Source of the DNA: Lysobacterales bacterium
GTDB taxonomy: Bacteria; Pseudomonadota; Gammaproteobacteria; Xanthomonadales; SZUA-38
Length of the DNA: 64,000 nt
Assembly: GCA_030065125.1 (NCBI GenBank)
Contig: JASJDM010000007.1
Coordinates: 1-64,000 of the forward strand
Direction of reading: 5' to 3'
Below, piece after piece: positions 17,711 through 57,008 of the stretch. How positions within the stretch are numbered: position 1 is the stretch's first letter; every line of letters starts with the position of its first letter. The notes below the pieces were generated by a model that saw only the letters and a list, made by a program, of their open reading frames with translations, did not search any database and was not told where the DNA came from. A program made the translations under genes and the position numbers.

Positions 17711-17801
17711 AGCGTGCGCAGCACGCGTTCCCCAGGCCGCACAGCGGCCGTTTCCCAGCTCGCGCAGCGAGCGTTCCCCAGCGCCCGCAGGGCGCGTTCC
17801 C
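17711..17801. repeat. Tandem 23-bp variable-stem hairpin array (R2), 4 units
   Basis: Each unit is A + 6-base arm + 3-base loop + complementary 6-base arm + GTTCCCC (GTTTCCC once). Arms in order are GCGTGC/GCACGC, GGCCGC/GCGGCC, GCTCGC/GCGAGC and GCGCCC/GGGCGC, with loops GCA, ACA, GCA and GCA. All four stems pair perfectly although their sequences differ, while the spacer is constant. Confidence 0.85.
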
Positions 17802-17903
17802 ACAAAACAAATCCGTTGCCGAAATCCTCAGCTTTGCGGTGCTTCGTTGCGCTCTACGAAATTTGCTGTAGGATGAGATGCTCGCAACAGACAGGAGGTT
17901 CGC

Positions 17904-18149
17904 ATGCGGTTAGCCGTTCTCGCTGTAGTCAGCCTGGCCATCACGGCCTGCGCCTCGGTGCCCAACAAAAAGCTGGCTGGAGAACCTCCCCCCGTATGTA
18001 ATCCCGAAATCCAGGACAATCGCTCAGTCATGGATTCCTCCTGCATGAACCTGCTGCAGGATCTCCCCATCGCTCGCGGCCGCGTCAAGGCCACCGGCCT
18101 CAAGAAAAGCCGGGAGTGCATGGGGCCGCATTGTACGACCAGGCATTAG
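17904..18149 (+). CDS. Small lipoprotein of unknown function
   Basis: 81 residues with a clear lipoprotein signal: charged start, hydrophobic core, and lipobox I-T-A-C with the lipidated Cys16. Four further cysteines lie in the mature part (P-V-C-N-P, S-S-C-M-N, R-E-C-M-G, P-H-C-T-T), which could form disulfides in the periplasm. A strong aggagg stands six bases before ATG 17904, so translation is likely despite the small size. It lies between two nearly identical palindromic repeat blocks. I do not recognise a family. Confidence 0.75.
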   Translation: MRLAVLAVVSLAITACASVPNKKLAGEPPPVCNPEIQDNRSVMDSSCMNLLQDLPIARGRVKATGLKKSRECMGPHCTTRH

Positions 18150-18160
18150 CGTTTATTAGG

Positions 18161-18362
18161 TTCATCCGCAAGACGCGTCATCCATGACGCGCTCGCGGGC
18201 GCTACGCAAAATTGCGATTTTGCTCCGCTTACGGCCTTCGGCCGTTGGCACATGGTTGGTTCATCCGCAAGACGCGTCATCCGTGACGCGCTCGCGGGCG
18301 CTACGCAAAATGCGATTTTGCTTCGCTTACGGCCTCCGGCCGTTGGCACATCCCTGTGCCAA
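18161..18362. repeat. R1 palindromic repeats, two tandem copies
   Basis: Copies at 18161-18253 and 18260-18362, 99 bases apart and almost identical. Both carry the CGCGTCA-type first hairpin; the centre differs (ATCCATG versus ATCCGTG). The second copy ends with TTGGCACATCCCTGTGCCAA at 18343-18362, whereas the first stops at TTGGCACAT. The block leads into the second 23-bp array. Confidence 0.85.
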
Positions 18363-18404
18363 AGAGCTTCGTTCAAGCTCTGTATCACAAGTCTCGCTTT
18401 TCCC

Positions 18405-18495
18405 AGCGTGCGCAGCACGCGTTCCCCAGGCCGCACAGCGGCCGTTTCCCAGCTCGCGCAGCGAGCGTTCCCCAGCGCCCAGAGGGCGCGTTCCC
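18405..18495. repeat. Tandem 23-bp variable-stem hairpin array (R2), second copy
   Basis: The same four units and arms as at 17711-17801, with the last loop AGA instead of GCA. The 42-base lead-in also matches the earlier block with a few substitutions, so this is a duplication of the whole repeat block. The remaining 45 bases before pmbA show nothing recognisable. Confidence 0.85.
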
Positions 18496-18540
18496 TGGAA
18501 CCACAACGAATTTGACTGGCACTGCTGCCAAAGAATTGTT

Positions 18541-19935
18541 TTATTGCCCTGCGACGGTCATCCGATCAATCAGTATTGACGGGCTGCGCAGGGCGGCGCG
18601 GTCGTCCAGGTCGTTGCCAACGCCCACAATGCCCTTGAACATCTGTTCCAGGTTGCCGGCAATGGTTACTCCCTCAACCGGATAGGCGATCCTGCCGTCT
18701 TCCACCCAGAAACCCGATGCGCCCCTGGAATAATCACCGGTCACCAGGTGTACCCCCTGCCCCATGAGTTCACCCACCACCAGGCCGCGGCCCATCTGTG
18801 CCAGCAGGTCGTCCCGGGACTGGGAACCCGGCTCCAGGGTCAGGTTGTGCACGCCGCCGGAATTGCCGGTGCTGCTCAGCCCCAGCTTGCGGGCGGAGTA
18901 GCTGCCCAGAACATAACCCGTCAGAACCCCGTCTTCGATCAGGCTCCGCTCCCGGGTGGCCACCCCCTCTCCGTCGTACCAGCACGAGCGCAGCCCGCGC
19001 CGCTGGAAAGGGTGCTCGCGTATCTGGATATGGTCGGGAAACAGCTGCTCCCCTGCCCGGTCCACCAGGAACGAGGACCGCCGGTACAGATTGGCACCAC
19101 TGACTCCACCCACCAGATGCCCAAGCAGGCTGCGGCCGGTCTCAGGCAGGAACAGGACCGGTACCGTTGCCGTCTCAACTGGCCGCGCGCCGTGCCGCTG
19201 TACCGCCCGCCGGCCTGCTTCCAGACCGATTTCCTCCATGTCCTGCAGGTCCGCGGCACAGCGTCGGGTGTCGTACCAGTAGTCCCGCTGCATGCTGTCA
19301 TCGCTCTGGGCCAGCACCACGCAGCTGGCGGAGTGACGGGTGGCCCGCCGACTGCCGACAAAGCCATGAGAATTGGCAAAAACCGCCACGGTGCTGCCGC
19401 TGCTGACCGTGGCACCCTCGGAGTTTTTGATCAACGGATCGCAACCCAGCGCCGCATGCTCACAGCGGGTTGCCAGCTCGATAGCCTGGTCCGGTGCAAT
19501 TTCCCAGGGGTGCCAGCCGTCCAGTTCCACCGGCTCGGTGGCCATTTGCTCCGGATCAGCCAGTCCATGGCACGGGTCCGGTTCCGCCAGTCGCGCAATG
19601 CTGCAGGCCATGTCCAGGGACTCGTCGATGGACCCCGGGCTGAGATCGGCGCTGGACGCGCCGCCCTTGCGCTGGCCGAAGTAGACCGTGATGCCGACGC
19701 CGCGATCCCGGCTGTATTCCAGGGTTTCGACCTCGCCCATGCGGACCGTGGCCGACAGGCCGGCATGGATGCTGGCAGATACGTCAGCCTGGCTTGCGCC
19801 CCGTTCCCTGGCCCGTTTCAGGATGCCCTCGGCAATCTCCGAGAGGCGCTGGATCTCCTGCTCCGCCCAGCGGGATTTCTGCTCCGCTTTTGAGAGATCC
19901 AGGTCGAATCCATTATCCTTGTTCAGTTCGTTCAT
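18541..19935 (-). CDS. pmbA: Metalloprotease subunit PmbA (TldE)
   Basis: Partner of TldD in the TldD/E protease, which matures peptides such as microcin B17 and degrades unstructured peptides in the cytosol. The 464-residue protein belongs to the U62 family. Typical segments include D-R-G-V-G-I-T-V-Y-F-G near residue 79 and the C-terminal half with N-S-G-G-V-H-N-L-T, G-D-Y-S-R-G-A-S-G-F-W-V-E and I-A-Y-P-V-E. It lacks the HExxxH zinc motif, as expected of this subunit. It diverges from darP with only 15 bases between start codons, so the two promoters must overlap coding sequence. Confidence 0.95.
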   Translation of the reverse strand: MNELNKDNGFDLDLSKAEQKSRWAEQEIQRLSEIAEGILKRARERGASQADVSASIHAGLSATVRMGEVETLEYSRDRGVGITVYFGQRKGGASSADLSPGSIDESLDMACSIARLAEPDPCHGLADPEQMATEPVELDGWHPWEIAPDQAIELATRCEHAALGCDPLIKNSEGATVSSGSTVAVFANSHGFVGSRRATRHSASCVVLAQSDDSMQRDYWYDTRRCAADLQDMEEIGLEAGRRAVQRHGARPVETATVPVLFLPETGRSLLGHLVGGVSGANLYRRSSFLVDRAGEQLFPDHIQIREHPFQRRGLRSCWYDGEGVATRERSLIEDGVLTGYVLGSYSARKLGLSSTGNSGGVHNLTLEPGSQSRDDLLAQMGRGLVVGELMGQGVHLVTGDYSRGASGFWVEDGRIAYPVEGVTIAGNLEQMFKGIVGVGNDLDDRAALRSPSILIDRMTVAGQ

Positions 19936-19950
19936 CGTGTCGGAAAATCC

Positions 19951-20469
19951 ATGTTTTCAGATTCCGAAGAATCCCTTTCCAAGTCCCAGCTCAAGCGGGA
20001 CGCCCGGGAGCTGTTCGACCTGGGTCGTCAGCTGGTGGCCATGTCCCCCAACCAGCTGGAACAGATTCCGCTGCCCGAATCGGTGCTCGATGCCGTTGTG
20101 GAAGCCCAACGCATCAAAAGCCACGTGGCCCACAAACGCCAGCTCCAGTTCCTGGCCAAGCAACTGCGCGCCATTGACCCCCAGCCCATCATCGACGCCG
20201 CCGCGAAGCTTCACGGCCAGGGCGTCGAGGACACCCTCAAGCAGCATCGGCTGGAAGCGTGGCGGGAAGCCCTGCTGAACGACGGGCACCAGCGACTGAA
20301 CGAGCTGATCGCCCAGCGGCCGGACCTTGATCGGCAATTGATTCGGAGCCTGATTCGAAAGGCGCAGCGTGAGCTGGCCGAGATGAAACCCCCGGCAGCC
20401 GCCCGCAAGCTTTTTCGCAGCCTGCGTGAGCTGGACGACCAGTCTCCGCTGGAACCACCGCGATCATGA
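19951..20469 (+). CDS. darP: 50S ribosome assembly factor DarP (YjgA, DUF615)
   Basis: Binds late 50S precursors and aids peptidyl-transferase-centre maturation in the cytosol. The 172-residue all-helical protein shows the family start (K-S-Q-L-K-R-D-A, then E-L-F-D-L-G) and the central [15 protein letters not shown] motif. darP lies among pmbA and tldD in many gammaproteobacteria. Here its last six bases overlap the end of the convergent tldD gene. Confidence 0.93.
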
Positions 20470-21909
20470 GGCCTGGGTGCCGCCGACTGTCAGGCCGTCG
20501 ATCCGCAATGTAGGCTGGCCAACACCAACGGGTACGCTTTGCCCGTTTTTGCCGCAAACGCCAACGCCCAGGTCCAGCTCCAGGTCGTTGCCCACCATGC
20601 TGACCCGGGTCAATGCCTCGGGCCCGTTGCCAATCAGGGTGGCACCCTTGACGGGTCGGGTCACCCGGCCGTTCTCGATCAGGTAAGCTTCACTGGCGGA
20701 AAAGACGAACTGCCCCGAGGTGATATCCACCTGGCCGCCGCCAAAGTTCACCGCGTACAGTCCGCTGTCCACGGATTCAATGATCTCGCCGGGGTCGTGA
20801 TTACCCGCCAGCATATAGGTGTTGGTCATTCTCGGCATGGGCAGATGGGCAAATGACTCGCGCCGGCCGTTGCCGGTGCTGCGCACGCCCATCAGTCCGG
20901 CATTGTGTTTGTCCTGCATATAGCCGGTCAGGATGCCGTTTTCGATCAGCACCGTGTTCTCCGCCGGCACGCCCTCGTCATCCACGGTCAATGAGCCCCG
21001 GCGTCCAGGCAGGGTCCCATCGTCCACCACGGTACACAGCGGCGATGCCACCTGCTGGCCCATGCGACCGGCAAAGGCCGAGGTGCCCTTGCGGTTAAAG
21101 TCGCCCTCCAGGCCGTGGCCCACCGCTTCGTGCAGCAGTACGCCGGGCCAGCCGGGCCCCAGCACTACGGTCATGGTTCCCGCCGGCGCGTCCACCGCCT
21201 CCAGATTCACCACCGCCTGGCGTACGGCTTCATGGGCCATCTTCTCGGCGTTTTCCGCCGTCAGCAGTTCGTCGTAGCCATAACGGCCGCCGCAGCCGGA
21301 TACCCCCGTTTCCCGCCGGGATCCGTCTTCGGCAATGATCTGTACGTTGAGCCTGACCAGGGGCCGGACGTCCCCGGCCAGGGTGCCGTCGCTGCAGGCC
21401 ACCAGCACCACGTCGTGAGTCGCGGCCACGCTGGCCACCACCTGGCGTACCCGTGGGTCCGCTTTCCGGGCCATGGCGTCGATGCGACGCAACCAGTCAA
21501 CCTTGTCCTCGCTGCCCAGGGAATTCACCGGGTCGATAGGCGGATACAGGGCACCACCGGAAGTGCGGTGCCAGGCCTGCATGGAGCCGGACTCTCCGCT
21601 GCGGGCGATGGCCCTGGCCGCCCGGGAGGCGTCTTCCAGGGCCGGCAGCACCAGTTCGTCGGAATAGGCAAAGCCGGTCTTCTCACCAGACACCGCCCGC
21701 GCCCCCGCACCCTGCTCAATGCTGTGATGCCCTTCCTTGACGATTCCGTCTTCCAGCACCCAGGACTCGTGGCGCGAATACTGAAAATACAGGTCCGCCG
21801 TATCCACCGACGGCCCCATCAGAGTGCCGAGCAGACGCTCCAGTTCCTTCTCCCCAAGGCCACCAGGTTCCAGCAGGCGCTGGGTCGCAATATCGAGATT
21901 TTCGGTCAT
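20464..21909 (-). CDS. tldD: Metalloprotease TldD
   Basis: Catalytic subunit of the TldD/E peptidase. The 481-residue protein carries the zinc motif H-E-A-V-G-H followed by [12 protein letters not shown], characteristic of the U62 family. The C-terminal half shows R-M-T-N-T-Y and the [13 protein letters not shown] region. The stop shares six bases with the darP end on the other strand. yhdP, its usual upstream neighbour, lies some 10 kb away beyond an accessory block. Confidence 0.96.
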
Positions 21910-22126
21910 CCGGGTATTGCAACAGAAAGTGGTGTCTGGGGCGAGTACGCAAATCCCATTTTTGCCGCTGGATGGCAGGCAATGCAGACTTTACCAATCC
22001 GCGGGATCGCGGCGATGCCTGAACATTTTCACCGATCTCGATGCTGACCTGGACATGGGCCTTCTCCATGAAACGGGCATCGGGGAAACGGGCACCGGGC
22101 CGGTCCCAGGGTCATCGCAGGCAACT

Positions 22127-24133
22127 TCATCCGCCGCGGCTGATCGGGCCGAAATACATCGGCCGGTCTTCCACCTCGATGTGCAGGGTGCGAATGTTGT
22201 TGTCATCGTTCACGTCCCCGCTGTCGCTGCGCAACTCTGCGGTCACCTGAGCTGAACCACTGCCGAAGTGGGCCTGGGCATCGAACGTGAGTACGGCCAC
22301 GCTGCCGTCTCCAGGGACACGTTCAAGAGTGCACCGCAGGGTGGTTTCACCGGCCGGAAGGCAATTCCAGGGTGTGGTGCCCGCCGGCGTGAGCTGGAAG
22401 AGATTCCGGCTGGTCAGCAGGAGTTCGGCATTCATGGCTTCCAGCCCCCAGTTGGCTACCCGAACGGATAACTCGAAAGGCCATGCAGCGACAACCGGCT
22501 GAGGCGGGGACTGAAAGTTTACCGATAGATCAGACATTGCCGGGGTTCCGTTCTGGTTTTCCATTGCCCCGGCGTCAAAGTGCTCTCCGCCCGGCACCCG
22601 AGGGTGATCCACGGGACGTATCGCACCCAGGTAGTCCCTGGACCCGCTCACCTCCGACCGTGCACACAGGTCAATGGCGGGTGAAGTGTCGGCCAACTGC
22701 AGCGTACCTTCCAGTAGCGCCGGATCTTCAGTCACATGGACGGAGATGCCCGGTACCGCATCGAGATCCATGCGGCGCTCGGCGGTTTCCAGCTCCGGCG
22801 TGACCAGGCATCGAATTTCCAGCACATCCAGGTCAGGATTGGCACCGGCCTTTTGAACATCGCCGGAATCCGCCATGAAGTGGACCGGAGCCAGCGGCTG
22901 GTCATACCAGATAATGGAATTCTCGATCAGCAGGTGTTCAACACTTTCGCTGTCTCCGTGCAACCCAAAGACCCCGTAAATGTCAGCGTCGTCGACCTGC
23001 TGATGGAGCAACGTCGTGTGGGATAAGGACAGGCGACCCGGCTGTTGCGGAGACCCGGCAACGGAAAACAGCAGTTCCGCCCTGGAGGCCGGCCGATGGT
23101 TGTCCCGAAACTGCGAGTTGGAAACCCGAACAAGGCTCTCATCGACGGCAATCAGCGACACGGACGGACCGGCGAATCCATCAACACAATCCGCCGGCCC
23201 GGAACTTACGGCGGCGTTGCCGTCAAACCTGGCGCGGTCAATGGTGACCGTGGATCGGACAGCGCTGATGGTTCCGCCGAGAGGCATCCAGGGATCATCA
23301 GGGCAGTCTGACCGGGCGCCAGGAAATCCAAGCGCGGTGTTGTCCACCACCTCGGCATCATGCAGATCCAGCGTCGAGCCGGAGAGGTAAATAACCGCAC
23401 CGCTGGTCGCCGAATTTCCGGCCATGGTCACGCCGGAAACCGCAGCCTCGCAGTTTTCCGCGTGCAGTACCCCGCCGCGGCCCGTCGCATCGTTCCCGGT
23501 GAAGACCGCGCCGGTCAGGTTCAGCGCGCTTCCGGTACAGAAGATGGCGCCACCGCCCTCTTCGGCAGGGGCACCCTGGGCGACATTGGCGATGAATTCC
23601 ACAACCTTGTGTTCAAACGGGGGCGGAGCCAGCCTCAGTGCCCCTCCGTCTTCAACGGCAATAGCGCCACCCCGATCGGCGGTGCCCTGTCGAATGCTGG
23701 CATTCCCGATGGTTACGTCAACGCTCCCGCGGATGCTGATCGCTCCACCCCCGCCAGAGGCTCGCCCATTGAGGATGTCCAGGCCGAACAACAGGACCTG
23801 TTGTCGGGTGGTCGTTGCGGCCGTGGCTTCAATAGTAATGGGCCGACGGATGCTCTGTCCGTCCAAAACGATTCGCTTTTCCGTCAGGCTGGAGATCAGC
23901 AAGGATACGTCCCGGATCAGCAGCTGTTTCGGCGGCGTGAAGTTATTCGCATCCACGTAGTAACTGGCGCAGCCTTCGGCGTCGATAGCGGTCTGAAGAT
24001 CGCGGTAGTCGGCTTTGCCGCTGTTGGAAACGATGACCGAACGGTGAGGATCCTCCGCCGGGCACAGGGGAATCTGAGCCAGCGAAAGCGATGTGATACT
24101 GCACAGCATCACGGCAACAAAAAAACGGACCAT
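22127..24133 (-). CDS. Secreted right-handed beta-helix protein
   Basis: The 668-residue product starts at ATG 24133 after a strong ggagg; the longer frame to 24181 would bury the signal peptide (M-V-R-F-F-V-A-V-M-L). The body is a parallel beta-helix with repeated G-G-A-I turns, such as G-G-A-I-S-I-R-G, G-G-A-I-A-V-E-D and G-G-A-I-F-C-T-G, as in polymorphic surface proteins. An anchor-Q-like segment follows (S-P-A-I-D-L-C, later D-A-G-A-M-E). The last ~130 residues look like an Ig-like CARDB/DUF11-type domain ending with D-V-N-D-D-N-N. It is probably exported or surface-bound. It diverges from the ECF sigma gene. Substrate or partner is unknown. Confidence 0.8.
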   Translation of the reverse strand: MVRFFVAVMLCSITSLSLAQIPLCPAEDPHRSVIVSNSGKADYRDLQTAIDAEGCASYYVDANNFTPPKQLLIRDVSLLISSLTEKRIVLDGQSIRRPITIEATAATTTRQQVLLFGLDILNGRASGGGGAISIRGSVDVTIGNASIRQGTADRGGAIAVEDGGALRLAPPPFEHKVVEFIANVAQGAPAEEGGGAIFCTGSALNLTGAVFTGNDATGRGGVLHAENCEAAVSGVTMAGNSATSGAVIYLSGSTLDLHDAEVVDNTALGFPGARSDCPDDPWMPLGGTISAVRSTVTIDRARFDGNAAVSSGPADCVDGFAGPSVSLIAVDESLVRVSNSQFRDNHRPASRAELLFSVAGSPQQPGRLSLSHTTLLHQQVDDADIYGVFGLHGDSESVEHLLIENSIIWYDQPLAPVHFMADSGDVQKAGANPDLDVLEIRCLVTPELETAERRMDLDAVPGISVHVTEDPALLEGTLQLADTSPAIDLCARSEVSGSRDYLGAIRPVDHPRVPGGEHFDAGAMENQNGTPAMSDLSVNFQSPPQPVVAAWPFELSVRVANWGLEAMNAELLLTSRNLFQLTPAGTTPWNCLPAGETTLRCTLERVPGDGSVAVLTFDAQAHFGSGSAQVTAELRSDSGDVNDDNNIRTLHIEVEDRPMYFGPISRGG

Positions 24134-24418
24134 TTTTCTTTCCTCCCAATGGGGTGTTTGCCGGGTTACAGGAACACTCACGTGGAAAGTGGAAAAAACC
24201 CGCCAGGTCAGTGCGCGGCCGGTCGAATTGGCGGGATTTGCCGCCGCCGTTAGGAGGTAGTCCTGCAGAAGACTCGCATGTAGGCCCGGGTTGCCGAATG
24301 AGTCGCCTTCCAGACGTCCTTTCTCGACCAGTAGGACATGGCCGTCAGTCCCGGCAAATATACATGGTGGTGCATTGCGGATAAGCTATGGTTCAGGATC
24401 CAGTCCGGACAAGCAACC

Positions 24419-25009
24419 GTGCCCGAAGACCAGCCCGGCAACGCGATACTGGGAGACATCACCACGGCCCTGAAAGCCAGCCGGGAGGGTGATGCGTCTG
24501 ACTGGGACCACCTGTTCAAGCTCGTGTATCAGGACCTCCGACGCCTGGCCGGCATCCAGGGCCGCAATACTCCCGACGTTGTAACCCTGGAGCGCACCGG
24601 ACTGGTCAACGAAGCTTTTCTCCGGTTGGTCAAATACAGCAATGTTGACTGGCAAAGCCGCGACCACTTTTTCGCCGTCGCCAGCAAGGCCATGCGCCAG
24701 ATCGTGGTGGACGAATGCCGCCGAAGGCTGGCGGAAAAACGAGGCGGGGGCGCAGTCCACGTGGACATCAATGACGTCGACGCCGAGGCTGAACGCCAGG
24801 CCGAGGCGGTGCTGGCCATCAACGAGGAACTGGATGCCCTGAGAGCCTCGGATCCCGATCTGGCCCGAGTGGTGGAATGCCGTTTTTTTGCCGGATACAG
24901 CGAAGAGGAAACCGCGGCCGGCATGGGCGTCTCCCTGCGCACCGTTCAGCGTAAGTGGAAACAGGCCCGCGAACTGCTCAAGGAACGCCTTCAGCCCGAT
25001 TTCGGTTGA
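24419..25009 (+). CDS. ECF-type sigma factor, TIGR02999-like
   Basis: The 196-residue product from GTG 24419 has sigma region 2 at about residues 30-105 (T-G-L-V-N-E-A-F-L-R-L-V, then V-D-W-Q-S-R-D-H-F-F-A-V-A-S-K-A-M-R). A linker with A-E-K-R-G-G-G follows. Region 4 lies at about 135-192 (R-F-F-A-G-Y-S-E-E-E-T-A and S-L-R-T-V-Q-R-K-W). These phrases are typical of the TIGR02999 group, whose genes often sit by Ser/Thr kinases rather than anti-sigma factors. Upstream open frame lacks a better start. No anti-sigma gene is present. Its 3' end overlaps the convergent kinase gene by 19 bases. Confidence 0.88.
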   Translation: MPEDQPGNAILGDITTALKASREGDASDWDHLFKLVYQDLRRLAGIQGRNTPDVVTLERTGLVNEAFLRLVKYSNVDWQSRDHFFAVASKAMRQIVVDECRRRLAEKRGGGAVHVDINDVDAEAERQAEAVLAINEELDALRASDPDLARVVECRFFAGYSEEETAAGMGVSLRTVQRKWKQARELLKERLQPDFG

Positions 25010-45932: not shown

Positions 45933-45953
45933 GCGATTCTACATGATCAGGGT

Positions 45954-48183: not shown

Positions 48184-48339
48184 TCAGTAGCCTGGATTAT
48201 TCATGAACCCGCAGAACGAACCATCGATTTGATATTTGATTCAAACGCTTGGGGTGGATCTTGGGCGTTCTCAAGAAGGATAGTGTTGCTGGCGGATCGT
48301 CGCCTGCCGTGGCGGCACATCTCAGCCGATCCCGCGCCA

Positions 48340-48358
48340 ACCATAGCGGTGCTATGGT
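48340..48358. other. Perfect hairpin between convergent genes
   Basis: ACCATAGC and GCTATGGT pair perfectly around the loop GGT, in the 245-base gap between two converging genes. No U-run follows. It could be a bidirectional terminator or a protein-binding palindrome. The rest of the gap shows no gene. Confidence 0.35.
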
Positions 48359-48428
48359 CTGGCACACGATCGGCCGACCTGCACGCACCACGACAACCGA
48401 CAATTCCGCCGTTCATAAACAATCCAGG

Positions 48429-50741
48429 CTATCTTCCCCAGTCCTGGGACGTCACCTCCAGGGTGATGGTTGCCGAGGCCTGGCCGCCAAAGCCGTCATC
48501 CACCGTGTAAGTCAGCTCGTCGCCTCCCCACCAGGCGGGCATGGGGGTGTAAAGGATCTGGTTGTCCGCGGTCACCTCCGCTGAGCCATAGCGGGTCATC
48601 GCGGTCACCGAGATAATGGTCAGCGGATCACCGTCGGGATCAAAGTCGTTGGCCAGTACGTCGATGAGTACCGCGACCTCTTTCCTGGTTGTGGCCTGGT
48701 CGTCCACCGCCACCGGCAGCTGGTTGAAGGGGGTGACCTCAACGCTGATGGTCGCCGTGCTGGTGATGCCGAACTCGTCTTCCGCGGTGTAGATGAAAGT
48801 GTCGGTGCCGACGAAGCTGCGCTCCGGTGTGTACTCCACCTGGCCGCCACTGATGACCGCCGTGCCGTTGGCGGGATCTCCCACCGATTGCAGCACCACG
48901 CCTTGTCCGGAATCGTTGGCCAGCACGTCGATGGTGACGGGCTGGGTCCGCGGCGTCGACGCCTGGTCGTCACCCAGCACCAGCGGCGGCCGCTCGATGA
49001 CCGTGACGCTGACCTGCGCCATGGCCTGGCCGCCCGCCCCGTCATCGGTGGTGTAGCCAAAGCTGTCGCTGCCGAAAAAGTCCGGGTTGGGGGTGTAGGT
49101 CACGCTCTGATCACCGTTGATCTCGGCCACGCCGTTGGCCGGCTGGGTCACGGCGGTCACGCTGAGAGGGTCTCCATCAGGGTCGCTGTCGTTTTCCAGC
49201 ACATCGATGACCACGGCAAACCCCTGCAGCGTGGAGGCGCTGTCGTCAGCCGCAGCCGGGAAAGTGTTCACCACCACCTGGGGACCCAGCCGAACCTGGG
49301 TTTCCGATCGGGCAATGCGGTAGACGTCCACCTCGCGCTTGTGCTGTATCGGGTTGCGCAGGGCGCGTCGCAGCCAGGCCGGGTCGTCGATCTCTTCCCG
49401 CTGCCACTGCACCCGGGTGCTGGCCTCGGTAGCCTCCCGGACGACCACGTCCCGGGATGACTGCTCCAGGCTGACGAACTCGATCTCCACGCGCCGGTTC
49501 AGCTTGCGATTGTCTTCGCTGGTGTTGGGCACCCGGGGCTCGGCTTCACCCCGCCAGGCTACGTTGAGCTGGTCCGGGGACAGGCCTGCCTGCTGGAAAA
49601 AGCCTGCCACCTGTTCGGCCCGCCGCTGGGACAGCCCCAGGTTGTACTGGTCGCTGGCCAGGTCGCAGGTATGCCCGGTCAGTTTGATGCGGCCCTGGAT
49701 GTCCATGCTGCGGATACGCGCCACCAGGTCGGTCAGCACCTCGCCGGTATCCGACCGGATCGCCGAGCGGTCCAGGTCGAACAGGGCCATTTCGGCTACG
49801 GTGACCCGGTTCTTCATCAGGCGCGCTTCGGTCACTGCCGGCACCGCCGGTACCGGGACTTCCACCCGCCGCTCGATACCGTCCCGCCGGGGCTGATAGC
49901 TCTCACCGAAGGCATAGCGGTACATCAGCACCGCCCGGGTATCGCTGTCGTCCACTTCAAAGTCACCGGACTTGTTCAGGTATTCGCCGGTCAGTGACAG
50001 GCTGTGGCCGGTGTTGGCAAAAAACTTTTCCAGACCCAGGCTGACCGTGAGCTGATCCGCGTTGGAGCGGCCGTCTTCCCAGTCCAGGCCGCCGCGCAGT
50101 CGCACCAGCGACCGGTCGAACCAGCGACCCACCCTCAGGCCGGCGCCGTAGTCATAAGGCCGCTCAAAAATACGGGTGATGGTGTCGGTGAACTGGTCCT
50201 GCACAAAGGCCTGGTTGCCGCTGACCCCGGTCAGTTGTTCGATCTCGGTCCGCACGCTCTCGCTGACCAGCCGGTCACCCGTCATACCTTTCATTACGTA
50301 GGCGCCCCAGAACAGCATCGGGCCTTCCCGGCCATAGCCCAGGGTCAGCTTGCGGTCGTCCCACTGGTTCTGGTCCACCGCCAGAAACGCCTTGGATATC
50401 TTCACGGAATCCTGGTTGAGGGCGGCATCTTCCAGGCTCTGAGCCCCGCTGAGCCAGTGGTAGTTGAGCTTGACGCCGCCCCGCTCATCGCCGAGCCACA
50501 GCTCGCCAATCCAGTTGGAGTCATCGTCTTCGCCGAAGACATTGAAATACTCACCCTGGATATCGCCCTCGTCATCGATCCCGATGCCGACCCGCACGTC
50601 ATCGCCCGCGTAAGACACCTGGGCATTGCCATCGCTGCCGGTCCAGCGCACGTCGGCGCCTGAGCTGCTGTTGTCCTGGGCCGAAGCGGCCGCACCGCCG
50701 GTGATACACGCCACCAGCGTCAGAACGCGAATATTCATCAT
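48429..50741 (-). CDS. OmpA-family protein with three C-terminal Ig-like repeats
   Basis: 770 residues: signal peptide (cleavage after A-S-A), an acidic beta-rich region to about 285 that may form a barrel, then an OmpA C-like peptidoglycan-binding domain at about 312-425 (G-H-T-C-D-L-A-S-D, then L-S-Q-R-R-A-E-Q-V). About 70 linker residues precede three cadherin-like Ig repeats near 494-583, 584-670 and 673-763. Each repeat has I-D-V-L-x-N-D and Y-T-P; the first and third carry D-P-D-G-D-P-L. The usual OmpA protein ends at the peptidoglycan domain, so the repeat tail is unusual. D-P-D-G-D loops suggest calcium binding. Confidence 0.85.
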   Translation of the reverse strand: MMNIRVLTLVACITGGAAASAQDNSSSGADVRWTGSDGNAQVSYAGDDVRVGIGIDDEGDIQGEYFNVFGEDDDSNWIGELWLGDERGGVKLNYHWLSGAQSLEDAALNQDSVKISKAFLAVDQNQWDDRKLTLGYGREGPMLFWGAYVMKGMTGDRLVSESVRTEIEQLTGVSGNQAFVQDQFTDTITRIFERPYDYGAGLRVGRWFDRSLVRLRGGLDWEDGRSNADQLTVSLGLEKFFANTGHSLSLTGEYLNKSGDFEVDDSDTRAVLMYRYAFGESYQPRRDGIERRVEVPVPAVPAVTEARLMKNRVTVAEMALFDLDRSAIRSDTGEVLTDLVARIRSMDIQGRIKLTGHTCDLASDQYNLGLSQRRAEQVAGFFQQAGLSPDQLNVAWRGEAEPRVPNTSEDNRKLNRRVEIEFVSLEQSSRDVVVREATEASTRVQWQREEIDDPAWLRRALRNPIQHKREVDVYRIARSETQVRLGPQVVVNTFPAAADDSASTLQGFAVVIDVLENDSDPDGDPLSVTAVTQPANGVAEINGDQSVTYTPNPDFFGSDSFGYTTDDGAGGQAMAQVSVTVIERPPLVLGDDQASTPRTQPVTIDVLANDSGQGVVLQSVGDPANGTAVISGGQVEYTPERSFVGTDTFIYTAEDEFGITSTATISVEVTPFNQLPVAVDDQATTRKEVAVLIDVLANDFDPDGDPLTIISVTAMTRYGSAEVTADNQILYTPMPAWWGGDELTYTVDDGFGGQASATITLEVTSQDWGR

Positions 50742-50897
50742 CTTGTCTCCCCGGATGTGGGTCAGTTCAGGGTCTGCTTTCCTGGTGTGCCTGCCAGGGC
50801 ACCAGCAAAGATTAGGCGAAAAATGGTGTCTGGTAAATGAAACCGCCGGGCTTTGGACCCGGCGGCTCGATGCGGTCAGCTGACGGTCACTATCCCG

Positions 50898-51101
50898 TCA
50901 GTCTTTGAGCACAAAAGTGACCTTGAGATTGACCCGGTACTCGACGATCTGGCCATTCTTGATGATCACCTTCTGGCCGTCCACCCAGGCACCTCTGACG
51001 CCCTTCAGGGTCTTGGTGGCGCGCTTGACACCCTTGTTGATGGCCGCCTCGAAACTCTTGGGAGAAGAAGCGATGATTTCTGTAACGCGTGCGACTGCCA
51101 T
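50898..51101 (-). CDS. Dodecin (internal start within the fused frame)
   Basis: 67-residue flavin-storage protein that forms dodecamers. It shows the typical A-W-V-D-G-Q-K-V, then G-Q-I-V-E-Y-R-V-N-L-K-V-T-F-V-L-K-D. A strong aggagg stands seven bases before its ATG at 51101, so a free dodecin is almost certainly made whether or not the deaminase-linked form is. The length is normal for the family. Confidence 0.88.
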   Translation of the reverse strand: MAVARVTEIIASSPKSFEAAINKGVKRATKTLKGVRGAWVDGQKVIIKNGQIVEYRVNLKVTFVLKD

Positions 51102-51731
51102 ATTTTTTCCTCCTGTTGCAGGGATCTCCTGGTCGCCGCGGTCAGTCGCGGCAGTGGATCCCTGAGACTGGGGATTGTAAATGACCCCGCCAGACCGGGC
51201 ATAGTCAGCAAATACACTTGTTGACCTTTTTCGACTAACCTCCGTCAGCACCGTCATGCCCCGGGCTCGCAGTGTCCCTTTCCAGTCCTCGGGTTTGGAG
51301 CCTTCGTCGAAGCCGATGGCTTCAGCGTCCGCCGCGGTGCTGCCGCAGACCAGGGAGCGCACCCCGGACCAGGGGATGGCACCCAGGCACATGGCACAGG
51401 GTTCGGTGGACGTCACCAGCTCATAGTCACCGGTGGACAGGTCGAAGGATCCAACCACCGCCTGGGCCAGGGTCAGCGCCACCACTTCGGCGTGGGCCGC
51501 CGAGCTGTTGATCGCCGTGACCAGGTTGACACCAGGCGCAACCACCTGGCCATTGGCGTCGAACACCACCGCCGCAAAGGGTCCGCCCGTGCCCCGCCGG
51601 ACATTTTCCCTGGCCAGTTCAATCACCAGTTCCATCCGCTGCCCGGGCGTTTCCAGGGCACCTTGCCAGCCCTGGACAAACCCGGTTATCCAGTCGGGCA
51701 GCTGCCAGGTGACCGCGGGCCAGTCAGCCAT
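50898..51731 (-). CDS. Nucleoside/guanine deaminase reading in frame into dodecin
   Basis: 277 residues from ATG 51731, eight bases inside the rlmB end. Residues 1-187 are a zinc-dependent cytidine-deaminase-fold enzyme with H80-A-E82 and P111-C-A-M-C115, most like guanine deaminase/tRNA-deaminase-type proteins, ending at the natural G-G-V-I-Y-N. No stop follows: 23 low-complexity residues lead directly into a full dodecin at 211-277. The linker contains the dodecin's own ribosome binding site translated as G-G-K. Either a fusion is made along with free dodecin, or the deaminase stop has been lost, possibly by a one-base change. Zinc ligands are intact. Confidence 0.75.
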   Translation of the reverse strand: MADWPAVTWQLPDWITGFVQGWQGALETPGQRMELVIELARENVRRGTGGPFAAVVFDANGQVVAPGVNLVTAINSSAAHAEVVALTLAQAVVGSFDLSTGDYELVTSTEPCAMCLGAIPWSGVRSLVCGSTAADAEAIGFDEGSKPEDWKGTLRARGMTVLTEVSRKRSTSVFADYARSGGVIYNPQSQGSTAATDRGDQEIPATGGKNMAVARVTEIIASSPKSFEAAINKGVKRATKTLKGVRGAWVDGQKVIIKNGQIVEYRVNLKVTFVLKD

Positions 51732-52503
51732 GGGACAGCCTCTGCCGCTGAACTTCAAACAGGAAGACACCCGCCGCCACGGAAACATTGAGGCTTTCGG
51801 CCTGGCCCTGCATGGGAATAGCGGCCAGGAAATCGCAGGTTTCCCGGATCAGGCGGTGCATCCCCTGCCCTTCACTGCCCAGCACCACCACGGTAGGCCC
51901 GGTGAGGTCGAGCTGGTACAGGGACTGTCCGGTGTCGCCGGCCGCACCTACCACCCACAGACCCATCTTCTTGAGTGACCTGAGGCAGCGGGCCAGGTTG
52001 GTCACCTGCACCAGAGGCAGCCGTTCCGCAGCACCGGCAGCGGCTTTCCGGGCCGCGGGCGTGAGATCCACAGACCGGTCGCGGGGAAATACCACGGCCG
52101 TCACGCCGGCCGCCTCTGCGCTGCGCAGACAGGCGCCGAAATTGCGGGGATCCTCGATGTGGTCCAGCACCAGGATCAGCGGGTTCCCGGAAGTTTCCAC
52201 CAGTTCGGCCAGATCGGCCTCGGGCCGGTAACCGGCGGAACGGTACAGCGCCGCGACGCCCTGATGTCGGGTCCCGGGAAAGCGCCGGTCGAACTCCGCG
52301 CTGTCGGCGCGGGTAACCTGTACGTCAGCAGATTCTGCCGCACCCAGCAGGCCACGCACCCGGGCATCCTGGCGACCCGCCGCCACCAGCAGCTCCCGCA
52401 CGTTGGCAGGATCGTTTGACAGCGCCCCCTCCACGGGGTTGATACCCACCAGCCAGCTCTCGGTGCGGCCGGATTTCCCGGGCTTATGCCTGGCGCGACT
52501 CAT
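51724..52503 (-). CDS. rlmB: 23S rRNA guanosine-2251 2'-O-methyltransferase RlmB
   Basis: SpoU-type methyltransferase for G2251. The 259 residues from ATG 52503 open with W-L-V-G-I-N-P-V-E near residue 18 (substrate-binding domain) and end with the SAM knot: D-H-I-E-D-P-R-N-F-G-A near residue 117, V-V-L-G-S-E-G-Q-G near 205 and I-P-M-Q-G-Q-A-E-S-L-N-V-S near 226. The longer upstream frame lies inside rnr and is rejected. It overlaps rnr by 20 bases, as in other gammaproteobacteria where rnr-rlmB is conserved. Confidence 0.95.
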   Translation of the reverse strand: MSRARHKPGKSGRTESWLVGINPVEGALSNDPANVRELLVAAGRQDARVRGLLGAAESADVQVTRADSAEFDRRFPGTRHQGVAALYRSAGYRPEADLAELVETSGNPLILVLDHIEDPRNFGACLRSAEAAGVTAVVFPRDRSVDLTPAARKAAAGAAERLPLVQVTNLARCLRSLKKMGLWVVGAAGDTGQSLYQLDLTGPTVVVLGSEGQGMHRLIRETCDFLAAIPMQGQAESLNVSVAAGVFLFEVQRQRLSHG

Positions 52504-54694
52504 CACCCGACTCACGGGGGACCAGCTTGAGGTCGACCTGGCGATCGTCCACGTCCACCCGGATGACCTGTACCTGGACCTGGTCGGCCAGGCGATAGGT
52601 TCGGCGGCGCTTTTCACCGGTGAGGGTGTGGGCGATGGGATCGAAGTGGTAGTAGTCATTGGGCAGCATAGTGACATGGACCAGCCCGGAAATCTGGTTG
52701 TCGTGTATCTCCACGAACAGGCCAAACTCCCGCACCCCGGTTACCGTTCCGGCGAAATCATCACCCACGTGGGCCAGCAGGTAATTGCACTTGAGCCGCT
52801 CGTCCACGTCCCGGGAAGCGTCTTCGGCCCGGCGCTCGGTCATGCTGGAATGCTCGGCAATCTTGCCCGCCTGCTCCAGGGAATAGGCATACGACTGCCG
52901 CCGGTCCCCCTTGAAGGTGCTGCGCAGGGCCCGGTGCACCATCAGGTCCGGATAGCGGCGAATCGGCGAGGTGAAGTGGGCGTAAGCATCCAGGGCCAGG
53001 CCAAAGTGGCCGGCGTTGGCGGTCTGGTAAACCGCCAGGCTCAGGGAACGCAGGATCAGCGCCTCGATCAGATCCCGGTCCGGCCGCTCCCGTGACTCAC
53101 GCAGCACCTGAGACAGCCGTTCCGGCTTGATGTCGTCGCCGGGCGGGAGGTAGATCCCCAGCTCCATCAGCGCATCGCGCAATCCATCCAGTTTTCTTTC
53201 CGGCGGTGAGGCGTGCACCCGGAACGGGACCGGGACCTTCCTGCTGATCAGGTAGCGGGCGGCGGCAACGTTGGCGGCGATCATGCATTCTTCGATCAGC
53301 CGGTGTGCATCGTTGCGCGACCGGGGCACGATGGCAGCCACTTCACCCTGCTCGTCAAACCTGAATCCCACCTCCCGGCTGCGGAAATCGATGGCGCCGC
53401 GCCTCTCGCGATAGGACCGAAACGCCTGGTAGACCTGGTAGAGCCGGGTGAGAGACTCCTGCACCGGCGCCTCCAGGGCCTTCCCGCCACCACCGTCCAG
53501 GAACGCCCAGGCCTGCTCGTAGGTGAGCCGGGCATGGGAATGCATCACGGCGTCGTAAAACCTGCTGCGTTTGACCTGGCCGTCTTCACCCACCTGCATC
53601 TCGCAGACCATGCACAGCCGATCCACCGCTGGATTCAGCGAGCAGATGCCGTTGGACAGGGCCTCGGGCAGCATGGGCAGCACCCGGTTGGGAAAGTACA
53701 CCGAGGTGCCGCGGTGATAAGCCTCTTCATCGACTGCGGTCCCGGGCCGGACGTAATGGGATACGTCGGCAATGGCCACCAGCAATTTCCATCCCCCGCG
53801 GGATGCCTGTTCGCAGTACACCGCGTCGTCAAAATCCCGGGCGTCGGCCCCGTCGATAGTCACCAGGGGCACCTGGCGCAGGTCCTTGCGGCCCGGCATC
53901 TCGTCTTCCTGCACATGGTCAGGAATCTTCAGGTCCTTTGCCGAGAGGGCTTTGGGCCACTGGTGCGGCAGGTCGAAGTTGCGAATGGCCACCTCGGTGG
54001 CCATGGGGGCATTGATGTTGCGACCCAGCACCTCCAGCACCCGCCCCACCGGCTGGCGTCGGCGATCCGGCTGCTCGGTGATTTCCAGGTACACAAAATC
54101 GCCGCTGGAAGCGTTCTTTTCATGCCCTGGCGGAATCAAAACGTCCTGACTGACCCGCTTTTCATCCGGCACCACGAAGGCCACGCCCGACTCCCGGTGG
54201 AATCGGCCCACCAGGTGGCTGTTGGCCCGCTCCAGGATGCTGACCACCGCACCCTCGATACGGCCACGACGATCTACCGATTGAGCGCGGACCAGGACCC
54301 GGTCGCCATGGAGGACCTGACGCATCTGCCGCGCTGACAGGTACCAGTCGTCCCCCTCCTCATCCAGGTCGACAAACCCGTATCCATCCGGGTGGCCAAT
54401 GACCCGGCCCGCCTTCAGGTCCAGTTTGCGGGAAATACCGTAGCCGCCACGCCGGTTCTGGATCAGCTGGCCGTCGCGCAACATGGCCGCCAGCCGTCTC
54501 CGCAGCGCTTCCTGGTCCCGCTCACCGTCGAGTTCCAGGGCATCCACCAGGTGACTGAATTTCATCAGCTCGCCGCGCTGGTCCAGCAAGCCCATGATCG
54601 CCTCGCGGCTGGGAATGGGCTGCTCGTAGCGGCTGGCCTCACGCTTGGCGTGGGGGTCTTTGAATCCGGTTTTTCTTGTTTTTTTTCTGGGCAT
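52484..54694 (-). CDS. rnr: Ribonuclease R
   Basis: 3'-5' exoribonuclease that digests structured RNA and acts in rRNA quality control. The 736 residues comprise an N-terminal helix-turn-helix-like region, two cold-shock domains (G-H-P-D-G-Y-G-F-V near residue 100), the RNB catalytic domain (D-G-A-D-A-R-D-F-D-D-A-V near residue 280), and one S1 domain near the C terminus. The basic tail seen in E. coli RNase R (813 residues) is shorter here. It precedes rlmB. Confidence 0.95.
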   Translation of the reverse strand: MPRKKTRKTGFKDPHAKREASRYEQPIPSREAIMGLLDQRGELMKFSHLVDALELDGERDQEALRRRLAAMLRDGQLIQNRRGGYGISRKLDLKAGRVIGHPDGYGFVDLDEEGDDWYLSARQMRQVLHGDRVLVRAQSVDRRGRIEGAVVSILERANSHLVGRFHRESGVAFVVPDEKRVSQDVLIPPGHEKNASSGDFVYLEITEQPDRRRQPVGRVLEVLGRNINAPMATEVAIRNFDLPHQWPKALSAKDLKIPDHVQEDEMPGRKDLRQVPLVTIDGADARDFDDAVYCEQASRGGWKLLVAIADVSHYVRPGTAVDEEAYHRGTSVYFPNRVLPMLPEALSNGICSLNPAVDRLCMVCEMQVGEDGQVKRSRFYDAVMHSHARLTYEQAWAFLDGGGGKALEAPVQESLTRLYQVYQAFRSYRERRGAIDFRSREVGFRFDEQGEVAAIVPRSRNDAHRLIEECMIAANVAAARYLISRKVPVPFRVHASPPERKLDGLRDALMELGIYLPPGDDIKPERLSQVLRESRERPDRDLIEALILRSLSLAVYQTANAGHFGLALDAYAHFTSPIRRYPDLMVHRALRSTFKGDRRQSYAYSLEQAGKIAEHSSMTERRAEDASRDVDERLKCNYLLAHVGDDFAGTVTGVREFGLFVEIHDNQISGLVHVTMLPNDYYHFDPIAHTLTGEKRRRTYRLADQVQVQVIRVDVDDRQVDLKLVPRESGDESRQA

Positions 54695-54742
54695 GCCTGA
54701 TCCCGAGACGTGCCCGGTTGAGGTTGGTCAGTGAGAGGTACT

Positions 54743-55672
54743 TCAGGCCGACGTTGATCCGCTGCCCTTGGCCACCTTGGTCGCCATGGCAATCATGGAA
54801 GACACGTCAGACAAATCGGCCGGAACCACCAGCGTATTGCCCTCTTTGGCCAGGTTGGAAAAACTAGCCAGGTACTGTTCGGCTACCCGCAGCTGCATGG
54901 CCTCGGATCCGCCCCGCTCCTGCAGGGCCGTAGCCACCCGCTTCAAGCCCTCTGCAGTTGCGGTGGCCACTGCCAGAATGGCCTGGGCTTCACCCTGGGC
55001 TTCGTTGATCTGTTGCTCCCGGGCCGCTTCGGACTCCATGATCACGCGCTTTTTCTCACCGTCGGCCTGGTTGACCTGGGCGTCGCGTTCACCCTCGGAG
55101 GTCAGCACCACGGCCCGCTTTTCGCGCTCGGCGCGCATCTGCTTCTCCATGGCCTGGAGCACGTCGTGGGGCGGCGTGATGTTGCGGATTTCGTAGCGCA
55201 GCACCTTGACACCCCAGGGGTCCGAGGCTTTGTCCAGTTCACTGACAACGTTGGAGTTGATCATGGCCCGCTCTTCGAAGGTTCGATCCAGCTCGATTTT
55301 GCCGATTTCGCTGCGCAGGGTGGTCTGGGCCAGCTGGGCGATGGCAAACACGAAGTCGCCGATGCCGTAGGAGGCACGGCGGGCATCCAGCACCTGCATG
55401 TACAACACGCCGTCCACGTGGACCTGCACGTTGTCCCGGGTAATACAGATCTGCTCAGGGATATCGTAAGCCTGCTCCTTCAGGGAGTGCTTGTAGGCAA
55501 TTTTTTCAATGAACGGGATCAGGATATGAAATCCCGCAGTGAGGGTTCGGCTGTATTTGCCCAGGTTCTCCACCACGTAGGCGTTCTGCTGGGGGACCAC
55601 CGTGGCGGTTTTTGCCAGCACGATAATGATGGCAACGGCGATGATCACCGCAACGATCAGGGAGGTTTCCAT
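54743..55672 (-). CDS. SPFH/band 7 membrane protein (QmcA-like)
   Basis: 309 residues with an N-terminal membrane anchor at about 4-20, a band-7 domain (V-P-Q-Q-N-A-Y-V-V-E-N-L-G-K near residue 26; E-R-A-M-I-N-S-N-V-V near 133) and a coiled coil rich in E-A-x-x, ending with G-E-A-Q-A-I-L-A. These stomatin/paraslipin proteins form membrane microdomain cages. Pairing with an NfeD gene 12 bases upstream is typical, as in qmcA-ybbK. Confidence 0.93.
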   Translation of the reverse strand: METSLIVAVIIAVAIIIVLAKTATVVPQQNAYVVENLGKYSRTLTAGFHILIPFIEKIAYKHSLKEQAYDIPEQICITRDNVQVHVDGVLYMQVLDARRASYGIGDFVFAIAQLAQTTLRSEIGKIELDRTFEERAMINSNVVSELDKASDPWGVKVLRYEIRNITPPHDVLQAMEKQMRAEREKRAVVLTSEGERDAQVNQADGEKKRVIMESEAAREQQINEAQGEAQAILAVATATAEGLKRVATALQERGGSEAMQLRVAEQYLASFSNLAKEGNTLVVPADLSDVSSMIAMATKVAKGSGSTSA

Positions 55673-55684
55673 ATCTCTAACTCC

Positions 55685-56134
55685 TCAGGAGTGACTAGAT
55701 TCTTCGGGAGCACGCACGTGCAGGGTGGTTCCCTCGGTGCGCTCGATCACCGCCTTTCCGCCTGCGGGAATCGGCAGTTTGCCGTCGTGGACAACTTTCC
55801 AACTGGACCCGCGATACTCAACCCGCGCTTCCGTGCCGGACTCCAGGCCGTTGGGGAGCGCCAGGGTTTTGCCGGAATCAGAGTTGTCGTAGCCCGGCAG
55901 GTTGCCCCGCAGCTTGTTGTAGAGTTCCCGGCGGAATGACACCATCAGCACCGCGCTCAACGCGGCAAATGCCAACCACTGGGCCCATTCCGGCCCGCCG
56001 ATGCCGGTCAGCACGCCAAGCCCGACGATGACGGCGGCAACGCCGGCAAACACCAGGTAGAACCCGGCGTCGATGACCATCAGTTCTGCCGCAAGCAGCA
56101 GCGTTCCAAAGGCGATCCAGGCCCACCAGGCCAT
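55685..56134 (-). CDS. NfeD-like membrane protein (YbbK-like)
   Basis: 149 residues with three or four membrane helices in the first ~75 (A-F-G-T-L-L-L-A-A-E-L, A-G-V-A-A-V-I-V-G-L-G-V) and a C-terminal OB fold (G-T-E-A-R-V-E-Y-R-G-S-S-W near residue 100, then A-V-I-E-R-T-E-G). It is the usual partner of SPFH proteins and lies 12 bases upstream of one. It is the short form without the ClpP-like protease domain. Confidence 0.92.
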   Translation of the reverse strand: MAWWAWIAFGTLLLAAELMVIDAGFYLVFAGVAAVIVGLGVLTGIGGPEWAQWLAFAALSAVLMVSFRRELYNKLRGNLPGYDNSDSGKTLALPNGLESGTEARVEYRGSSWKVVHDGKLPIPAGGKAVIERTEGTTLHVRAPEESSHS

Positions 56135-56215
56135 AGGCTAAAGCTCCGAACGTAAAGTGAAGCCTAATGGTATCAGGCTTTCAAGGATTTGACCGGGTCG
56201 CCAGACGTGTCATGG

Positions 56216-56902
56216 CTACTCAGGGTAGGTCAGCAGCAGCAGCGCCACCTGGATACCGTCGTACAGCACATGGGCCAGCACCAGGGGCAGCAGGCGCTGC
56301 ACCCGGTAGTAAAACATTCCGGCCACCAGGCTCTTGATGCCAATGGTGACAACGCCATATGGGCCCTGGCTCCAGTGGGTCAGGCCGATGATCAGTGCTG
56401 ATAGCACCACCGACGCGACCACCCAGGCCATGGCGGGTGAAAACGACCACAGCTTGTTGAGCAGAAACGTCCTCACCAGTTCTTCATACAGGGCCACCCC
56501 GATCCACAGCACCGGACCGAACCAGATGACCAGCATCCAGGGGTGCTGGCGCATGTCCAGCATCAGGCCCAGCAGCTCCATGTTGGGCCGGGACTCCAGG
56601 ATGCCGCCGAGCAGAGGCCGCTCCAGGACAAACAGCAAAAAATAGACCGCGGTCAGCGCCACACCCCACAACCCATCGGTCAGCAGGGTCCCTGTACCCC
56701 GGTTGAACTCGGACAGCGGCTGCTTCAGGTAAAAGCGCTGCAGCAGCAGAATGGCAACGATGCTCAAGCCGCCGAACAGCAGCGGGTAGACGATCAATTC
56801 CAGCGGCGCGAAGCCGCTGGACTGGTGGACCCGATACCAGATCATCAGGGTCGCCGGCATGCCGACGACGATGAGCAGGGCAATGAGTTTTCGGGAGATC
56901 AC
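56216..56902 (-). CDS. CPBP-family intramembrane metalloprotease
   Basis: 228 residues with about seven hydrophobic segments. The CPBP motifs are present: Glu140-Glu141 with Arg144 (Y-E-E-L-V-R), His176 (I-G-L-T-H-W) and His211 with Asp215 (L-A-H-V-L-Y-D-G). The start is GTG 56902, which lies just inside the edge of a 23-bp hairpin array. Role may be peptide processing or protein maturation; the substrate is unknown. No bacteriocin genes lie nearby. Confidence 0.83.
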   Translation of the reverse strand: MISRKLIALLIVVGMPATLMIWYRVHQSSGFAPLELIVYPLLFGGLSIVAILLLQRFYLKQPLSEFNRGTGTLLTDGLWGVALTAVYFLLFVLERPLLGGILESRPNMELLGLMLDMRQHPWMLVIWFGPVLWIGVALYEELVRTFLLNKLWSFSPAMAWVVASVVLSALIIGLTHWSQGPYGVVTIGIKSLVAGMFYYRVQRLLPLVLAHVLYDGIQVALLLLTYPE

Positions 56903-56916
56903 TCGCTTTGCTCGCG

Positions 56917-57008
56917 GGGGAACGCGGCCTTTGGCCGCTGGGGAACGGCCGCTACATGGCCTGGGGAACGGACGCTGCGCGGCCTGGGGAACGCGCGCGC
57001 TGCGCGCT
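56917..57008. repeat. Tandem 23-bp variable-stem hairpin array (R2), 4 units, reverse orientation
   Basis: Units at 56917-56939, 56940-56962, 56963-56985 and 56986-57008, each GGGGAAC + 15-base palindrome + T. Read on the minus strand the spacer is GTTCCCC as in the arrays near 17.7 and 18.4 kb. Stems are GCGGCC/GGCCGC (perfect), one with two mismatches, one with a single mismatch, and GCGCGC/GCGCGC. It lies between the CPBP gene start and the rraA end. Confidence 0.85.

Follow-up and report, generated by a model that had tools for sequence, protein, structure and literature searches.

Self-complementary hairpin arrays in a Lysobacterales draft genome, probable arms of a dispersed short element

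The first 64,000 nucleotides of contig JASJDM010000007.1 of a Lysobacterales bacterium (assembly GCA_030065125.1), called the window here, are part of contig C93 of a draft genome of 6.52 Mb in 138 contigs, and carry three short tandem arrays in which hairpins of changing sequence alternate with a tag, GTTCCCC or its complement GGGGAAC, at a unit period of 23 bp (Table 1). An earlier note on this DNA had described the arrays as 6-3-6 hairpins whose stems change yet usually stay self-complementary. All three lie where that note placed them, arrays 1 and 2 each with four perfect 6-3-6 hairpins, and array 3 with two perfect hairpins, one with one mismatch and one with two. The spacer that it had called constant is less so: in arrays 1 and 2 the one in the middle reads GTTTCCCA instead of GTTCCCCA. 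The stems of arrays 1 and 2 are the same four, and the two arrays, one loop base apart, are near-copies and therefore not independent of each other within the window.

Table 1. Arrays, palindromes and neighbouring genes in the window
Feature	Position	Strand	Description
Array 1	17712..17801	+	single arm; hairpin stems GCGTGC, GGCCGC, GCTCGC, GCGCCC; tags in order GTTCCCCA / GTTTCCCA / GTTCCCCA / GTTCCC
Array 2	18406..18495	+	single arm; nearly identical to array 1, but with AGA for GCA in the fourth loop
Array 3	56917..57013	-	single arm, reverse orientation; tags GGGGAAC; four hairpins
Family 2 (second palindrome family), three tandem units	12813..13101	+	unattached here to any GTTCCCC array
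Family-2 palindromes and about 50 bp	17401..17711	+	adjoin array 1 on the left, where the left arm and core usually stand
Family-2 palindromes and about 50 bp	18160..18405	+	adjoin array 2 on the left
PmbA/TldD-like gene (presumed name)	18541..19935	-	3' end towards array 2, about 45 bp away
Gene	57056..57535	-	3' end about 43 bp from array 3

The arrays are not peculiar to the window. The earlier note had proposed a genome-wide search for paired tags. Such a search, with the pattern GTTCCC-N17-GTTCCC, found 92 forward and 99 reverse matches (191 together), while the reversed pattern, used as a control, found 0 and 1. Sixty regions were studied: the three window stretches and 57 fetched regions that were picked among the tag matches listed or by one inner hairpin; at least 12 further array places are known in the genome outside this sample. 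All 60 regions bear arms, comprising 103 arms and 407 units, and 39 of them have two inverted arms, a left arm of GGGGAAC-hairpin units and a right arm of hairpin-GTTCCCC units with a core between them. The standard copy thus reads [GGGGAAC-hairpin-T]n, core, [hairpin-GTTCCCCA]n; some of the one-arm regions are truncated by contig ends. Copies at separate sites can be homologous, for example with 93% identity over 187 bp or 86% over 349 bp.

The length of the core is steadier than its sequence. Together with the two inner hairpins it measures 117-125 bp in 21 of the 39 two-arm elements (counted by eye), and 20 of the 27 cores that can be oriented by a GCGCGAAGCGC hairpin fall within this range with mostly dissimilar sequences. 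Its inner part, 85-93 nt long and mostly about 90 bp, is weakly conserved and gave no folding signal relative to shuffled sequences (n=20; the mean z is 0.13 under RNA parameters and 0.17 under DNA parameters). Interior tags (n=304) are GTTCCCCA in 232 cases, GTTTCCCA in 40, GTTTCCTA in 18 and others in 14. Exactly four tags were counted in 58 of the 103 arms, two in 18, three in six and five or more in 21, a count in which a variant tag may split one arm.

Pairing was scored in the 304 tag-bounded units, 284 of them as 6-bp stems and 13 as 4-bp stems, with seven excluded for unusual length. Perfect pairing is found in 249 of the 284 longer stems (87.7%), while 26 have one mismatch, five have two and four have five or six; the 4-bp stems are perfect without exception (13/13). 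Shuffling of the 3' halves left 9.4% of stems perfect (15.8% in the largest of 2000 shuffles). The perfect six-bp stems span 26 sequences. When each distinct stem pair is counted once (59 in all), the paired fraction of positions is 84%, compared with 56% after shuffling.

A further comparison, between homologous copies, covered 396 stem positions in 20 pairs of elements. Thirty-seven positions had changed on both sides, many of them as whole-unit differences, and all 37 still pair; 4.4 two-sided changes would be expected if the sides changed independently, and 10 changes were one-sided. The cleanest paired change distinguishes locus L094 (GCTCAC/GTGAGC) from L100 (GCTCGC/GCGAGC) within an aligned stretch that is 95.8% identical. 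The units of the arms keep their self-complementarity while their stem letters change, and the proposal that pairing itself is maintained is borne out. Pairing is established, and the folded state we infer; the conserved property is likely to be single-strand folding of the arms, with four G-tracts spaced by hairpins.

Further detail comes from the mismatches and loops. Read on the GTTCCC strand, the mismatches of tag-bounded units comprise 16 G.T against 1 A.C and 9 G.A against 2 C.T, with four each of G.G and C.C. In a wider set, which includes innermost units and omits duplicates, G.T stands to A.C at 18 to 4 and G.A to C.T at 15 to 3, and the excess of G.T sits in the right arms (14:0) and is absent from the left (4:4). 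This bias can reflect selection for folding on the GTTCCC strand, or else C-to-T change in DNA that is frequently single-stranded. Its direction is opposite, in the first arm, to that of selection by a transcript leaving the adjacent gene. A transcription-linked C-to-T bias is disfavoured, the observed bias being on the other strand. Read on the GTTCCC strand, 135 of 185 perfect 15-mers have a GNA loop, and 48 of 59 perfect 16-mers have a GNNA loop. DNA loops of the types C(GNA)G and C(GNNA)G are exceptionally stable, and the folding energies of the two strands were computed without special DNA triloop terms.

The order of hairpins within the arms bears on how the arrays arose. Of 152 pairs of adjacent stems in two-arm elements, compared without the GCGCGAAGCGC unit and the innermost units, two are identical, where pooled shuffling yields 13.7 and at the lowest four. 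Exact hairpins common to both arms of an element number 21, where shuffling yields 6.2 and at most 15, and the outermost hairpin is the same in both arms in 8 of 39 elements (1.0 shuffled). Because identical neighbours are nearly absent and arms share hairpins, the arrays do not seem to have grown by single-unit slippage; the two arms seem to have been copied from each other, or both from one original. The alternative raised in the note, that a copying process produces the palindromes, is also partly right. Multi-unit duplications were seen by eye at three loci (L042, L049 and L086). Two neighbouring elements 1.3 kb apart (L032 and L033, C1:184054-185792) have interiors that appear mutually inverted by eye, with their arms retained.

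Copies cluster at the 3' ends of genes. With genes called by a custom codon-usage script, 44 of 48 elements had a called gene on both sides, and these pairs were convergent in 23 cases, co-directional in 19 and divergent in two; among 47 neighbouring gene pairs in the window, seven are convergent and seven divergent. The element is so far confined to the source genome among the genomes and collections searched. The tag pattern matched 16 of 101 genomes including the source, three family members having none, and the other 15 genomes had one or two matches each with spacers that read as unrelated to the unit. The strict pattern gave no match in collections of genome contigs and viral contigs, among which the source genome is possibly absent, and one whole element found no match among plasmids and phages. 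Generic tandem-hairpin arrays with a constant spacer were absent from 80 related loci (1.48 Mb) and from 347 kb of genomes G001-G003. At a site beside the genes we take to be argD and purK, G001 and G003 have no array, but with proteins 60% identical they are too remote for an empty-site comparison. Rfam gave no match above the gathering score in the window, and five matches in 10 loci, every one below it.

One copy of the element differs in content. At about C117:23430-24220 the core is replaced by an intact gene of the IVP family (four-helix-bundle, S23p) at C117:23751-24053, with arms on both sides; the protein has 118 aa and matches PF05635 with E=4.8e-34. By eye, three exact hairpins are common to both arms, which indicates an integral element with the gene inside it. 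By sequence, the protein matches a single solved structure, XCC0516 (2GSC, E=5.8e-30). The genome has a second IVP gene, which stands between inverted 8-bp arrays of different sequence.

IVP genes elsewhere are also associated with inverted arrays. Of 369 genomes in the class of the source genome, 77 have a PF05635 match, and in 71 it is over the cut-off. Flanks could be scored at 28 of 31 loci (three had too little sequence), and the 28 include two of the source genome. Inverted-repeat scores reached at least 12 at 18 of the 28 loci and at least 16 at 12, compared with four (at least 12) and none (16) of 55 pmbA control loci, and with 115 and three, respectively, of 2980 random windows from other genomes. 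In a control drawn from the same loci, scores of at least 12 were found at 16 of 24 IVP loci and in 1 of 96 control windows. Nine IVP loci from 25 plasmid records, eight cyanobacterial and one from Gemmatimonadota, included eight that score at least 14 and one that scores 0; that of Nostoc sp. C052 has AGGGAAC units, near to the GGGGAAC tag. At 20 of 33 IVP loci one flank or both have a clear tandem period, which is 7 at 19 of these, whereas the C117 copy has no clear period among 5-11 and the arrays of the source genome repeat at 23 bp. G skew is positive upstream and negative downstream at 24 of the 33 loci and otherwise at nine (by eye), and the two-arm elements of the source genome likewise have an inward-pointing G-rich strand in inverted tandem arrays.

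Gene-free arrays accompany an IVP gene in another genome as well. Genome G345 has one IVP copy and, by eye, at least four gene-free inverted GGGAATA pairs elsewhere (L330-L333). A G-heptamer pattern matched five of 22 genomes, 3 of 12 with IVP and 2 of 10 without (one match each), and its reversed control also matched G136, G183 and G306, where the pattern is not clean. IVP genes with inverted tandem arrays, mostly of 7-bp units, were observed in gammaproteobacteria and on cyanobacterial plasmids (L271-L299, L350-L358). On Anabaena and Pseudanabaena plasmids such genes stand between cas10 and cmr3 and between cas6 and cas4, and another lies between two ribonucleotide reductase genes (sites among L350, L352, L353 and L355). 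No publication joining IVP genes with inverted arrays was found in a search of mainly open-access literature, partly of top-ranked matches only, and the terms S23, helix bundle and xcc0516 are absent from PMC4692102.

The note had also suggested looking for a RAYT transposase gene. Three Y1 genes of the genome match the model of REP-associated transposases at 72, 64 and 32 bits, below its curated cut-off of 80, and no GTTCCC array lies within 1.5 kb of them. A REP-type transposase-like protein (L053:1465-2394) ends in a DnaA C-terminal DNA-binding domain with a Pfam score just under the cut-off. A Y1 transposase gene (L051:1170-2005) lies between inverted GGGGTCAGAGTAAAGGGACAG ends in what is apparently a separate mobile element; a GGGGTCAGAGTAAAGGGACAG ending also adjoins a GTTCCCC array where contig C52 begins (L080).

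We consider it somewhat probable (about 60%) that these arrays form the arms of a short, dispersed and mostly non-coding element, a hairpin variant of the inverted-array architecture found with IVP genes, which is probably mobilised in trans. Selection, or repair, would act on the folded single-stranded arms, in which compact hairpins would hold the G-rich tags at fixed spacing. Unlike neighbouring stems would let each hairpin fold on itself and guard the tandem array from slippage, and a trans-acting protein that recognises folded arms would spread the copies. That mobilising protein we infer, the candidates being REP-type tyrosine transposases or an IVP/Avd-like four-helix-bundle protein.

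Several points weigh against this account. The evidence is drawn from sequence, and founder effects could account for the number of tags and the types of stem. All three arrays of the window are single arms, and in two of them family-2 palindromes stand where a left arm would be. The mismatch bias between strands falls from 16:1 to 18:4 in the wider set and is then confined to right arms. The IVP gene is present in just one of the regions seen and may be a later insertion. The 29 IVP loci from other genomes were the best-scoring of the class search and not a random sample, and 8 of the 28 scored loci are without any inverted repeat. By eye, only 4 of 13 gene-free sites in G345 are inverted and nine are one-sided, and in G136 none of six is. 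The authors of PMC4692102 in general saw no association of their heptamer repeats with mobile elements.

For the mover there are two possibilities, each of which we regard as tentative. The element may be of the REPIN/BIME type with an unusual tag, moved by one of the genome's REP-type tyrosine transposases. REPINs, in the portions of PMC3116915 drawn on here, have the same topology of inverted palindromes round a spacer whose length matters over its sequence, with compensatory changes, and REPs are described in passages of PMC3733652 with alternative complementary stem residues, GT pairs, clusters and positions between convergent or co-directional genes. The genome also has its three proteins that match the REP transposase model, but all score below its cut-off with no array nearby, the tag is neither GTAG nor CGTC, and REPIN spacers are said to fold (PMC3116915) whereas this core does not. 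Alternatively, and with about the same doubt, an IVP/Avd-like protein, perhaps with a reverse transcriptase, moves inverted arrays in trans, and the gene-free copies are its non-autonomous relatives. The IVP gene that fills the core at C117, the association of IVP genes with inverted arrays in other bacteria and the gene-free pairs of G345 favour this possibility; against it stand the single IVP copy of the element in the source genome, the other arms of the second IVP gene, the one-sided majority of gene-free G345 sites, and a protein family called functionally uncharacterised in the text consulted of PMC10053308.

Two further explanations appear less probable still. A structure useful to the host, such as a bidirectional terminator, a protector of mRNA 3' ends or a G-quadruplex regulator, would suit the position at gene 3' ends and the four G-tracts per arm, and in vitro quadruplex formation by related heptamers is given in a section heading of PMC4692102. 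We nevertheless think it unlikely, as the G.T mismatches favour the GTTCCC strand, which is not that of the neighbouring transcript in the first arm, the element is species-specific in the searches made, and the core is unconserved. Even less weight goes to an origin without selection, by which template switching at quasi-palindromes would make and repair the palindromes and recombination would spread the arrays. It would accommodate the exact hairpins that arms share, the seemingly inverted interiors of L032 and L033 and the multi-unit duplications, but by itself it leaves the four tags per arm, the constancy of the tag and the dispersal unexplained.

If the dispersed-element account is extended, IVP genes and inverted, often G-rich tandem arrays might form a widespread and unrecognised class of small mobile elements in Gammaproteobacteria, Cyanobacteria and beyond. 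The IVP protein would spread gene-free copies in trans via folded arms, and the hairpin arrays would be a derived form with four G-tracts spaced by freely varying hairpins, either as a quadruplex with hairpin loops or as a ladder of four-way junctions between arms. We hold this extension to be tentative. If true, the link between IVP and inverted arrays would offer a testable role for the family and connect REPINs with heptamer arrays and with the intervening sequences of rRNA. The arrays are also a natural system that keeps a DNA or RNA fold, and not a sequence, over hundreds of units in one genome, which makes selection for single-strand structure directly measurable.

Other features of the locus and genome were recorded alongside. 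The best named match of the PmbA-like protein in the collections is from a Lysobacterales metagenome-assembled genome, at no more than 61% identity. Family 2 has 58 exact matches of GGCCGTTGGCACA-N-TGTGCCA in the source genome and none in 40 other genomes, and its outer hairpin varies in sequence with pairing kept and a constant frame (five pattern-caught instances, all different). Its sites include 12813-13101, 17401-17700 and 18160-18400 in the window and the loci L084, L089 and L255, and in five places it lies left of a single GTTCCCC arm. Ten contigs (C7, C15, C18, C35, C43, C49, C52, C55, C57 and C122) start at or near arrays; the start of C35 is a fold-back of unique sequence round an element and probably an effect of assembly.

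Among known systems, a reading of the arrays as a CRISPR or an integron (attC) was set aside, no search having been aimed at such genes. The IVP protein weakly matches models of Avd from diversity-generating retroelements (17 bits against a cut-off of 40, and 20 against 80), whereas no template/variable repeat or reverse transcriptase turned up, no search having been aimed at either. Intervening sequences of 23S rRNA have an S23p/IVP gene between inverted complementary ends, with heptameric repeats nearby, in the account given in part of PMC4990558. The C117 copy likewise has its IVP gene bracketed by inverted complementary ends, but the element lies outside rRNA, its ends are tandem arrays and nearly all copies are gene-free. 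Heptamer arrays of Xanthomonas and Nostoc (GGGAATC, GGGGA(C/T)T) are, in the sections of PMC4692102 used, commonest with four units and mostly intergenic, with 16% convergent placement in xanthomonads, and form 70 and 75 inverted pairs in two xanthomonads and few in Nostoc. The element resembles them in its G-rich 7-mer, its commonest number of four units, its inverted pairs and its mostly intergenic position, and differs in that self-complementary hairpins of 15-16 nt separate the 7-mers.

The closest design is that of REP/BIME/REPIN sequences, a known kind with a different tag; the note could name no family of this design. Both have short tagged palindromes with complementary stem variants, intergenic placement at 3' ends and high copy number, and REPs are often species specific. 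Here 39 elements have inverted palindromes on either side of a core, which measures 117-125 bp in 21 of them and so matches the steady spacer length of REPINs, while the tag is GTTCCCC(A) and not GTAG or CGTC, and a repeat-flanked RAYT gene was not found in the 1.5 kb round the three Y1 genes. The arms are arrays, mostly of four tags, with differing hairpins and mostly GNA or GNNA loops, and the core is without a predicted fold. Since stem variation, GT pairs, inverted dimers and convergent placement are already known from REPs, the surprise of the earlier note is partly answered.

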